IMG/VR virus record: IMGVR_UViG_3300033148_002883
Span: 1-28,289 of that record
From: a virus
Length of the DNA stretch: 28,289 bases
Reading direction: 5' to 3' (one strand)
The notes beneath the pieces were generated by a model that saw only the letters and a program-made list of their open reading frames with translations, ran no database searches and had not been told where the DNA came from. This document shows, one piece after another, positions 2,263 through 15,380 of this stretch (position 1 is its first letter; each line of letters opens with the position of its first letter). The position numbers and the translations under genes are program-made.

Positions 2263-2303
2263 AAATCGGTATAGAGTAATATTACTTTATGCCGATTTTT
2301 TGT
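2263..2303 (+). terminator. rho-independent terminator, 18-bp hairpin
   Basis: Bases 2263-2298 form an unbroken inverted repeat: AAATCGG pairs with CCGATTT at the ends and the arms continue to the centre with two G-T pairs. A run of T follows at 2296-2301. It ends the left unit, and the next promoter begins directly at its T-run. The near-perfect symmetry means it could also stop transcription from the opposite strand. Confidence 0.9.
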
Positions 2304-2331
2304 TTACATTTTGTATTTTATAAAGTATAAT
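2303..2331 (+). promoter_or_regulatory. sigma70-type promoter, GTTTACA class
   Basis: TTTACA (2303-2308), exactly 17 bases, then TATAAT (2326-2331), 25 bases before the ATG at 2356 with AAAGGAG between. The same GTTTAC-N17-TATAAT layout recurs at 7969, 11972 and 15352. It drives the phosphodiesterase/ligase unit. Confidence 0.85.
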
Positions 2332-2355
2332 ATAATATAAAGGAGAATAGTAAAA

Positions 2356-3108
2356 ATGAGTGATGATTTTAGTTTGAAGGACTTGATAGATCCTAAACAT
2401 CCATCTATGGAGTGTTTAAGAGGTAAAGCACCTGGAACTTATAAACATTGTCAGAATGTTGCTAATTTTGTTGAGGCTGTTGCTATAGAACTTGATCTTG
2501 ATACAGATGCAATGCGTGTTGCTGCTATGTATCATGATATTGGGAAGTGCAATTTTCCAGAAGGTTTTTCAGAGAACCAAAATGGAAAAAATATTCATGA
2601 TGATCTTGATCCAATTCAATCATACACAATTATAACAAAACATGTTGGTGATACTATTTTAAAAATGATTGGTATGAAAGAAATGCCAAGAGAGATTATT
2701 GAATGGGTATCACAACATCATGGTGATACTATTTTACGATATTTTTATGATAAGGAAAAACCAAAAAAAGATAATAAGTATCGCTATAGAAGTGAAAAAC
2801 CACAATCTGTAGAATCTGCAGTATTGATGGTATGTGATTCAGTAGAGGCAAAAGCTCGATCATATGCAGCAAATGGAAAGTTTGAAAGTTCTGATGATAT
2901 TGAACGGTTAGTTCTTATGACTGTTGCTAGACTTGAAATGGATGGTCAATTAGATAATGTATTAACAGGGCATTTAAGACGTATAAAACAAACCTTAATC
3001 AACGAACTCAATTCTATGTATCATAAACGTGAACTTTATCCAGAAGATGAAGAAGAAGAAGAAAATATAGTATTGGGAAAGGAGAAAAAAAATGACAGTA
3101 GTAAGTGA
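2356..3108 (+). CDS. PgpH-like HD-domain c-di-AMP phosphodiesterase (soluble)
   Basis: 250 aa. It closely follows the HD domain of bacterial PgpH/YqfF (7TMR-HD family), which hydrolyses cyclic di-AMP to pApA. Visible in order: PGTYKHCQNVAN (H31), YHDIGK (H60-D61), FSENQ (71-75), HDDLDP (H81), TKHV (H96), SQHHGDTI (H121-H122), a basic RYRSEKPQS loop near 144-151, and CDSVEAKARS (D161). All the metal-binding His/Asp positions expected of this family are present. The seven-helix membrane sensor of cellular PgpH is absent, so the protein should be cytoplasmic. The C-terminus is acidic (DEEEEE). It is first in its operon behind a strong promoter and overlaps the next gene by 17 bases. Substrate is inferred from family; other cyclic dinucleotides are possible. 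Confidence 0.88.
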   Translation: MSDDFSLKDLIDPKHPSMECLRGKAPGTYKHCQNVANFVEAVAIELDLDTDAMRVAAMYHDIGKCNFPEGFSENQNGKNIHDDLDPIQSYTIITKHVGDTILKMIGMKEMPREIIEWVSQHHGDTILRYFYDKEKPKKDNKYRYRSEKPQSVESAVLMVCDSVEAKARSYAANGKFESSDDIERLVLMTVARLEMDGQLDNVLTGHLRRIKQTLINELNSMYHKRELYPEDEEEEENIVLGKEKKNDSSK

Positions 3109-7968: not shown

Positions 7969-7997
7969 TTTACAAAACATAAATATTTTGTTATAAT
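7969..7997 (+). promoter_or_regulatory. sigma70-type promoter, GTTTACA class
   Basis: TTTACA (7969-7974), 17-base spacer, TATAAT (7992-7997), directly after the glycosyltransferase stop and 23 bases before ATG 8021. It shares the TGTTTACA -35 region with the promoter at 2303. It drives the accessory block 8021-11962. Confidence 0.85.
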
Positions 7998-9048: not shown

Positions 9049-9516
9049 ATGAAAACAATAAACTCGTTTCGTGGTGATTTTGCATTTTTGTCAAATTTTT
9101 TTGTTGGTGCTCCTATTGTTGATTGGAGAGGAAATAAATGGGAGACAACAGAACATTTTTATCAATCAAAGAAAACAAATAATATAGATGATAAGATAAA
9201 AATTATGGAGGCTTTCTCACCAGGTAAATCAAAAAAAATTGGTAGAACTGTTGAAATAATTGATAATTGGGATGAACTAAAAATTGGTGTTATGAGACAA
9301 GCTTTGATGTTAAAGTTTGAGCAATGGCCTAAGTATAAAGAATATCTTATACAAATGGAAGGATATGAACTAGTTGAGGGCAATTGGTGGCATGATAATT
9401 TTTGGGGCAATTGTTTTTGTGATAGGTGTGAGAGTATAACAGGTACTAATATGTTAGGAAAACTCTTAATGGAACTTAGAAATAGTTATATTGAAATGGA
9501 GAAAGGAAATGTTTAA
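9049..9516 (+). CDS. NADAR domain protein (YbiA/DUF1768 family)
   Basis: 155 aa, a single complete NADAR domain. Hallmarks: FLSNF (13-17), WETTEHFYQSKK (31-42), EGNWWHDNFWG (110-120) and TNMLGKLLMELR (133-144). NADAR proteins act on N-glycosidic bonds. Family members include YbiA/RibX, which act in riboflavin-intermediate clean-up, and others that remove ADP-ribose placed on guanine by DarT1-type toxins. In a phage, plausible roles are NAD/ADP-ribose metabolism or reversal of ADP-ribosylation by host defence. GGAGAG site 7 bases upstream. Two extra cysteines pairs (CFCDRC, 122-127) sit after the EGNWW motif. The next gene begins inside its last codons. Confidence 0.93.
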   Translation: MKTINSFRGDFAFLSNFFVGAPIVDWRGNKWETTEHFYQSKKTNNIDDKIKIMEAFSPGKSKKIGRTVEIIDNWDELKIGVMRQALMLKFEQWPKYKEYLIQMEGYELVEGNWWHDNFWGNCFCDRCESITGTNMLGKLLMELRNSYIEMEKGNV

Positions 9517-10494: not shown

Positions 10495-10505
10495 GGAGGA
10501 TATTG

Positions 10506-11198
10506 ATGGAAGAATATAAGGATTTGTTTGGTGAAGATATAAAAGAAGGTAAAGAAAAACCAGCTACATATGTTGGTTTTGTATGGGATCATAGTGGTTC
10601 TATGCATGGTAGTGAAGAACTTGCAAGGACTAATTTTAATGAGCAGTTGAATACTCTTAAAAAAGATTCAGATAAGATTGATTATAATATTACTATTATT
10701 GAATTTGATAACGTGATAAGGGAAATAGTTGTAAACAAACCAATTAATTTAGTTGATAATATTAAAGAATATTGGATTGGTGGAACGACCGCTCTATATG
10801 ATGCTGTTGGCGTATGTATCAATAAGATTAAATTGCAAATGGAAAATGAAAATAGAAAAGACAAAGCTGCTCTTATTATTGTTATGACAGATGGTTTTGA
10901 AAATGCATCAAGTGAGTATAATAATAAATCAATTCGTGCTCTTATTAAAGAAATGGATGCTAAAGATGATTGGACATTTGTTTTTATGGGTGCTGGTATT
11001 GATAAGGAACAAGCTATGGATATGGGATTTGGTGATGCTAATACAGTAAGTTTTAGTAAAACATCAACTGGTTTTTCTAACTCAAGTAGTTCTCAAAGAG
11101 CATCATTAGATTCATATTCAGATATGAGATTACGAGGCAAGACAAAAACAAAATCTTTTTATAATGATAATAAAACAGAGGAAGAGAATAATGAGTAA
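10506..11198 (+). CDS. von Willebrand factor A (vWA) domain protein
   Basis: 230 aa from ATG 10506 with an excellent AAGGAGG site. The metal-ion-dependent adhesion site is complete: DHSGSM (D28, S30, S32), GGTTALYDA with the conserved threonine, and VMTDGFENAS with the aspartate. The domain fills residues 20-190. The tail is serine-rich and low complexity (STGFSNSSSSQRASL), then basic. There is no signal peptide, so it acts inside the cell. vWA proteins usually serve as Mg-dependent protein-binding modules. The neighbouring nuclease suggests a shared complex, but this is inference. Confidence 0.9.
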   Translation: MEEYKDLFGEDIKEGKEKPATYVGFVWDHSGSMHGSEELARTNFNEQLNTLKKDSDKIDYNITIIEFDNVIREIVVNKPINLVDNIKEYWIGGTTALYDAVGVCINKIKLQMENENRKDKAALIIVMTDGFENASSEYNNKSIRALIKEMDAKDDWTFVFMGAGIDKEQAMDMGFGDANTVSFSKTSTGFSNSSSSQRASLDSYSDMRLRGKTKTKSFYNDNKTEEENNE

Positions 11199-12043: not shown

Positions 12044-12991
12044 ATGAGTAAGTGGATTTCAAAAGATTTGTTTAACGACTTTCAAAAAGAAAAAAAAGCC
12101 GAGGCTGACAAGCCTAATGATTATGGTATGAGAAGAAGTGATATCATATGGGAAACACCAGTAAAGGGAACACAAGAAAAACCAAAAACATATGAGGGCC
12201 GATTATTACCAGATATAGATGGTGGGTTCTATAAAAAGTATTCATATCATATGTTCAAAAGTGGTGAAAAATGGATGTTTATATTATGTTCAAAGACATA
12301 TGATTTCGAAAATTACTGTCCATTTTGTTCTTCCACTTCTAAGTTGTATCAAGGATCAGCCGCTGATAAACAAATGGCATATAACTATAAAAGAAAGGAA
12401 AAATTTGTTAGCAATTTCTTTCTTGTAAACGATCCCAGAGATGCAGAAAGAGAAGCAGAGAGCAAAGTAAATGGTAAAGTTAAGTTGTATGAATTTCCTG
12501 GCAAAGTAGAAATGAAACTCAAAAATGAAATAACAGATACTAAAGAGGGATATGGTTATTTGATATTTGATCCAGGCGAAGAAGGTCATAATTTCATTCT
12601 AAAAGTACTAGCAACAAAACAAGATAAAAATGGAAATATATGGCCAGATTATAGTTCATCATTATTTTCAAGAAGTTCTGAGGCATTAGGAACTGATAGT
12701 GATATTGATAAAATAATGGAATCAAGAATTAATATTACCGAATACATTAAAAGCCTTGAAAAAACAGATGATGAAATTGTCCAAATTTTAAAAGCTGAAA
12801 TGTTATGGGATTTAGTAGAAGATGAATGGAATAGATACAAAAATATTCAAGAAAAAACCACAACCACATCATCAGTAAAAGAAGAAGATGATATTGATGA
12901 TGAACAATTTGATGATAAAGATGATGATAAAGAAACATCAACAGACGAATTAGATGATGAACAATTGCTCGCAGAACTTGAAAATATGTAA
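12044..12991 (+). CDS. T4 gp32-like single-stranded DNA-binding protein
   Basis: 315 aa. Coats ssDNA during replication and recombination. The zinc site has exactly the T4 gp32 spacing: H69-x12-C82-x9-C92-x2-C95. This lies in an OB-fold core with YKRKEKFVSNFFLVNDP, comparable to the gp32 strand that contacts ssDNA. The N-terminus is short and basic, as needed for cooperative self-binding. The last 50 residues are strongly acidic (EEDDIDDEQFDDKDDD), the gp32-type tail that recruits replication partners. GGGAGA upstream. It has its own strong promoter, as expected for a protein needed in large amounts. Confidence 0.92.
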   Translation: MSKWISKDLFNDFQKEKKAEADKPNDYGMRRSDIIWETPVKGTQEKPKTYEGRLLPDIDGGFYKKYSYHMFKSGEKWMFILCSKTYDFENYCPFCSSTSKLYQGSAADKQMAYNYKRKEKFVSNFFLVNDPRDAEREAESKVNGKVKLYEFPGKVEMKLKNEITDTKEGYGYLIFDPGEEGHNFILKVLATKQDKNGNIWPDYSSSLFSRSSEALGTDSDIDKIMESRINITEYIKSLEKTDDEIVQILKAEMLWDLVEDEWNRYKNIQEKTTTTSSVKEEDDIDDEQFDDKDDDKETSTDELDDEQLLAELENM

Positions 12992-15351: not shown

Positions 15352-15380
15352 TTTACATTCGTAGTATAATTTGATATAAT
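15352..15380 (+). promoter_or_regulatory. sigma70-type promoter, GTTTACA class
   Basis: TTTACA (15352-15357), 17-base spacer, TATAAT (15375-15380), with another TATAAT at 15365-15370 inside the spacer. Same arrangement as at 11972. It drives the RNase H-like nuclease and the long replication/nucleotide unit. Confidence 0.85.

Follow-up and report, generated by a model that had tools for sequence, protein, structure and literature searches.

A phage-specific clade of free-standing PgpH-type HD domain proteins with a putative role in c-di-AMP hydrolysis

In a 28,289-base virus record from IMG/VR (analysed at full length and hereafter called the window), we identified a gene for a free-standing HD domain protein that has the fold and catalytic residues of the c-di-AMP phosphodiesterase PgpH, lacks the membrane sensor of its cellular counterparts, and belongs to a clade of such proteins found in phages. 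The best explanation, and one that we regard as probable, is a soluble, unregulated phage c-di-AMP phosphodiesterase that derives from PgpH's catalytic HD domain. Enzymes of this catalytic kind are already known; new are a soluble clade specific to phages and how widely it is distributed.

Sequence and predicted fold of the HD protein

The coordinates and reading frame of the gene are exact, with an ATG at its first position, 250 codons, and a stop codon that ends it (Table 1). In profile searches, the encoded protein matched Pfam HD (55.6 bits) and NCBIfam HDIG (53.9 bits), with no Pfam match other than HD, and the more specific HD families of both libraries all scored under their own cut-offs. 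Among sequences in the PDB, the sole significant match was the HD domain of Listeria PgpH (Lmo1466, PDB ID: 4s1b/4s1c), with a phmmer E value of 3e-37 across residues 12-230. Such a match, together with conservation over dozens of phage contigs, excludes chance. The PgpH-type assignment made in the initial annotation is thus supported by sequence, as it is by the predicted fold described below, and the PGTY, FxENQ (here FSENQ), and QHHG signatures that it had pointed out are all present.

Seven metal ligands have been published for PgpH (H514, H543, D544, H580, H604, H605, and D648) (PMC8177086), and in 4S1B numbering these correspond to H31, H60, D61, H96, H121, H122, and D161 of the phage protein. 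Moreover, K64 aligns with K547, the oxyanion lysine of PgpH (PMC12072042). The initial annotation had listed these seven positions as metal-binding along with H81 (equivalent to H565), which is invariant, yet stands outside the seven published ligands, and so this last part of its list was not upheld.

An AlphaFold2 model built from an alignment of 16 phage homologues (mean pLDDT of 84) was compared with the PDB using Foldseek. Here, the top four hits were PgpH HD chains (4s1c/4s1b; E values of 3e-12 to 1e-11), with target-normalised TM scores of 0.85-0.90 and rmsd values of 2.3-3.3 Å. The superposition on the Listeria PgpH HD domain that had been proposed as a check gave the best of these (TM of 0.90 on the target, rmsd of 2.3 Å), the structurally aligned residues being about 38-39% identical. 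The families that followed, dNTPases and other HD proteins, had E values of 5e-3 or above and query-normalised TM scores of 0.52 or less; for dNTPase 2dqb, the values were an E of 5e-3, a TM of 0.43, and an rmsd of 10 Å. There was also no dNTPase profile match in Pfam or NCBIfam. The best match is therefore to PgpH and not to the dNTPase or GTPase HD families, a best match to which the initial annotation had named as speaking against its reading. As for the HD-GYP subfamily, the GYP motif is missing from the protein sequence, HD_5 scored 19.7 bits against a cut-off of 27.2, and the HD-GYP structures 4mcw and 4r8z gave query-normalised TM scores of 0.52 or less.

Compared with known systems, the phage protein shares with Listeria PgpH the HD fold, the seven metal ligands, K547, and the PGTY/ENQ/QHHG signatures, but unlike it is soluble, without the 7TMR-HDED sensor and 7TM domain, encoded in replication modules, and placed in a separate clade. 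The HD-GYP phosphodiesterases predicted in jumbo phages are likewise phage HD-superfamily proteins proposed to act on cyclic nucleotides (PMC7824862), but represent another HD subfamily, to which our protein, lacking GYP, is structurally only weakly similar. Acb1, the anti-CBASS nuclease of phage T4, is also a phage enzyme that opens cyclic dinucleotides, a likeness that runs via the predicted activity of the HD protein; its fold, however, is that of a 2H phosphoesterase, and no 2H family was matched in Pfam. Similarly, GdpP and DhhP carry out the reaction expected here (c-di-AMP to pApA), but with a DHH-DHHA1 fold, and Pfam revealed no DHH-DHHA1 domain in the HD protein. PmxA of Myxococcus was considered as a PgpH-like precedent and dropped, as the literature has it as an HD-GYP enzyme that prefers cGAMP.

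Absence of the sensor and the phage family

Besides the window, 43 IMG/VR contigs ranging from 5.6 to 312 kb were found by scanning to encode the free-standing HD protein. A further free-standing HD gene lies in a contig (L020; DAOVGR010000022.1) of a Thermoplasmatales archaeon MAG, where its neighbours are DNA polymerase-like, QueE-like, and thymidylate synthase-like proteins (names read from sequence), and this contig is best read as a phage contig misbinned in the MAG. The phage members have open frames of 238-286 residues, and in none is the HD domain preceded by a transmembrane segment. Moreover, the 7TM-7TMR_HD domain (PF07698) occurs in none of 19 viral records (the window and 18 related ones, many of them fragments) in a search whose positive controls gave matches. 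The missing membrane sensor noted in the initial annotation is thus borne out, both by the homologues and by these partly fragmentary records. Diadenylate cyclase (PF02457) was likewise not found in the 19 records, many being fragments, and so the host pool is the likely source of substrate.

Cellular PgpH is built otherwise. Among the best 80 loci of a genome scan, the 80th of which was the L020 contig, transmembrane segments precede the HD domain in all 79 cellular ones. A PgpH match was present in 204 of 267 genomes (149 Bacillota and 118 Bacteroidota), with the HD domain in a longer frame in every one of the 204. Only two of these matches lie in open frames shorter than 440 residues (280 and 350); considered as free-standing cellular HD domains, these two Bacillota frames were rejected, being contig-end cuts that still hold transmembrane segments.

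Conservation in the phage family is high at the catalytic core. In fact, all 41 distinct phage proteins have the seven metal ligands and K547 in place, and they likewise keep E556, N557, H565, S573, Y631, P636, Q681, and R710. Several residues conserved in cellular PgpH (G584, G633, and P634) are changed in the phages, all outside the core, and given these changes the substrate specificity of the phage enzymes may have shifted. The family is under purifying selection, with dN/dS values of 0.04 and 0.18 in two phage pairs whose dS is near or above saturation. Trees were built from 80 cellular proteins with either 16 or 41 phage ones, and in both a branch with a support of 100 splits all phage proteins from the cellular ones; since the trees are unrooted, we read no donor or direction from them.

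The viral records are all metagenomic, many of them fragments. As terminase profiles matched few of them, the T4-type Gp23 capsid gene was taken as the virus hallmark, and this was found in 10 of 38 records. No near-identical phage record was found for the window, and its nearest cultured phages by gp32 are Synechococcus and Acinetobacter phages, which are distant (40-43% coverage). We do not presume that these phages infect Gram-positive bacteria.

Other features of the contigs bear on hosts or translation. The tmRNA genes of contigs L001 (7798-8154) and L008 (5011-5374) encode near-identical tags (ADDYYTELALAA and ADDYYTELAKAA), which could hint at the host. In contig L002 (7350-8129), a protein reads as having a PEP-CTERM-like sorting signal, which would point to an exosortase-bearing host. 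The 141-kb viral contig L129 carries at 2225-2300 a pyrrolysine-type tRNA with anticodon CTA (ARAGORN), a possible sign of amber suppression.

As regards earlier examples, PHROGs gave no clear family for the HD protein (best match of 20.7 bits, E of 4e-4), and among the BFVD viral protein models Foldseek returned nothing at an E of 0.001, with other phage HD proteins at a TM of about 0.4. Of four PgpH matches checked in annotated-phage records, two had seven transmembrane segments, one had eight, and one was cut at the contig start; three of them (an Enterococcus record and two faecal scaffolds, with 7-8 segments) are host-like and were rejected as earlier examples. Within the open-access literature and the incomplete libraries of PHROGs, BFVD, and annotated phages, we found no described phage enzyme of PgpH type, which agrees with the initial annotation in knowing of none comparable. 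Iyer et al. (2021) had already proposed that phage HD phosphodiesterases, namely HD-GYP proteins of jumbo phages, counter nucleotide signals, with the PgpH type unnamed there (PMC7824862).

Promoter and gene neighbourhood

The initial annotation had placed the HD gene first behind a strong promoter, and the sequence upstream of the gene fits this, as a terminator-like hairpin is followed there by a good sigma-70-like promoter (Table 1). The predicted RNA fold of 2230-2300 has an energy of -22.4 kcal/mol (z = -5.5), and no shuffle was as stable. Exact copies of TTTACA-17-TATAAT number three in the window (at 2303, 7969, and 15352), all on the + strand and about 60 bases or less upstream of an ORF start, and the other two (7969-7997 and 15352-15380) are likely phage promoters. 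Promoter-like matches overall are no commoner in the window than in shuffles, and so the evidence for the promoter is its exact pattern, its placement, and the terminator. The HD gene heads a replication-gene module in the window, whereas several relatives have a tRNA gene upstream of it instead. Direct placement downstream of such a gene was seen in contigs L001 (8154-8180, tmRNA), L002 (4165-4187), L003 (9952-9977), and L007 (9938-10001), the last with the HD gene following a long array of phage tRNA genes.

Table 1. Features of the window at and around the HD gene
Feature	Positions	Strand	Evidence
Intrinsic-terminator-like hairpin, closes upstream transcription unit	2263..2298	+	16-pair stem, then T-run
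Sigma-70-like promoter TTTACA-17-TATAAT	2303..2331	+	11/12 consensus positions
Ribosome-binding site AAGGAG	2341..2346 (approximate to 1-2 bases)	+	Read directly from sequence
Free-standing, putative PgpH-type HD phosphodiesterase, 250 aa	2356..3108	+	phmmer, Foldseek, Pfam/NCBIfam, ligand alignment
NAD-dependent DNA ligase, recurrent downstream neighbour in the window's phage lineage	3313..5202	+	Pfam DNA_ligase_OB, DNA_ligase_aden, BRCT
T4 gp32-like ssDNA-binding protein, lineage marker of the syntenic replication module	12044..12991	+	Pfam gp32, 51.3 bits

Genes in the window include those for a gp32-type ssDNA-binding protein, T4-type RNase H, class II RNR, thymidylate synthase, and DNA ligase, as well as two DNA methyltransferases, a phage PDDEXK nuclease, NADAR, HSP20, and lysozyme. 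The window and seven other HD-bearing contigs have the gp32-like protein in common, and in the window's lineage synteny covers the HD gene and ligase as well as the small zinc protein, HNH, glycosyltransferase-like protein, and gp32. In 10 of 41 loci, a DNA ligase homologue follows the HD gene downstream at a distance of no more than 5 kb. In other lineages, the HD gene lies beside Rad52-like, DNA polymerase and QueE-like, or SbcCD-like genes (unscanned names read from sequence), and so its neighbourhoods are mostly those of replication and recombination. The NADAR domain protein of the window (9049-9516, +; PF08719, 86.7 bits) also occurs in the related contigs L165 and L166, and a stand-alone VWA domain protein (10503-11198, +) is a recurrent neighbour in the window's phage lineage.

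Proposed role and rival explanations

We infer the substrate, direction of effect, timing, and benefit of the phage enzyme as follows. With its gene at the head of a replication-gene module and behind a promoter of its own, the enzyme would act in the host cytoplasm, where it would use the PgpH mechanism to hydrolyse 3',3'-c-di-AMP to pApA; water activated by two metals would attack the phosphate, and the conserved lysine would stabilise the leaving oxyanion. Because the 7TM and 7TMR-HDED sensor is missing, we propose that it would be always on, lowering host c-di-AMP whatever the state of the host. The hold of c-di-AMP on potassium uptake, osmolytes, and other targets would then be released during phage replication. 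PgpH itself hydrolyses c-di-AMP and not c-di-GMP (PMC8177086). Moreover, c-di-AMP restrains potassium uptake, and a point mutation in KtrC leads to phage resistance in Bacillus subtilis (PMC8406301), which suggests that the c-di-AMP pathway can matter to a phage and makes this host control a plausible target.

A possible, though rather unlikely, alternative is that the enzyme serves counter-defence by destroying the cyclic dinucleotide signals of CBASS or related immunity, housekeeping c-di-AMP being a side target or no longer a substrate. Phage nucleases such as Acb1, Apyc1, and AcrIII-1 are used in this manner, and for the jumbo-phage HD-GYP enzymes the same purpose was predicted in a study that also proposed NADAR proteins, a class present in the window, to counter NAD/ADP-ribose signals (PMC7824862). 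Some peripheral positions are unlike cellular PgpH, and the HD gene adjoins DNA methyltransferase-like genes in contig L001 and is near such genes in L010. The conserved core, however, is that of the c-di-AMP enzyme, and the gene usually sits among ligase, Rad52-like, and DNA polymerase genes rather than in a defence island. Known anti-CBASS sponges are also described as having to leave homeostatic nucleotides alone (PMC11722364), which again speaks against counter-defence. A different HD phosphohydrolase, one that processes dNTPs, RNA, or DNA ends when the phage replicates, would suit the replication genes around it, and the HMMs of Cas3 HD, RNase Y, and HD_5 match weakly, below their thresholds. 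Nevertheless, we consider this improbable, in that RNase_Y (17.6 against a cut-off of 454.35 bits) and cas3_HD (25.8 against 43.45 bits) fall far short, dNTPase fold matches reach a TM of 0.43 or less, and PgpH-specific residues outside the metal site are invariant.

That the protein is a catalytically dead sponge, binding cyclic dinucleotides and leaving them uncut, is very improbable, as its catalytic residues are all invariant in the 41 phage proteins, even though sponges are common in phages. Host DNA or an assembly artefact wrongly binned as viral was also weighed, given that the PgpH matches in annotated-phage records (Listeria, Enterococcus, and faecal) look like host sequence, as judged from the four checked. 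The window, however, holds gp32, T4-type RNase H, class II RNR, phage PDDEXK nuclease, and lysozyme genes, its locus is syntenic in eight contigs, Gp23 is encoded in related records in the proportion given above, and the viral clade stands apart from every cellular PgpH sampled, so that we give this explanation hardly any weight.

Returning to the soluble c-di-AMP phosphodiesterase, that many large, uncultivated phages carry a sensorless enzyme of PgpH type suggests that a central host messenger may be cut during infection. Taken more broadly, and tentatively, the soluble PgpH enzymes may be an old family, specific to phages and common to large tailed ones, that strips the host-essential messenger c-di-AMP as a regular step of infection, which would free the host's control of ions and osmosis or do away with a checkpoint based on c-di-AMP. 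Speaking against such a role, depletion by the phage enzyme could trip decoy systems such as Panoptes, as loss of c-di-AMP-type decoys can trigger it, though the Panoptes decoy is the 2',3' isomer (2',3'-c-di-AMP); the enzyme is a candidate trigger of decoy-based defences of this type.

In many bacteria, c-di-AMP is essential or tightly controlled, and the nucleotide-degrading enzymes of phages have so far been viewed as immune countermeasures expected to spare such housekeeping signals. A widespread clade with an intact active site and no sensor makes it testable whether phages attack host c-di-AMP on purpose, and whether such an attack aids replication or evades defence. As compact, soluble enzymes, these phage proteins could be tools for c-di-AMP depletion. 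If the broader reading above holds, they would stand for a class of host takeover that targets second messengers with housekeeping functions, not immune signals.
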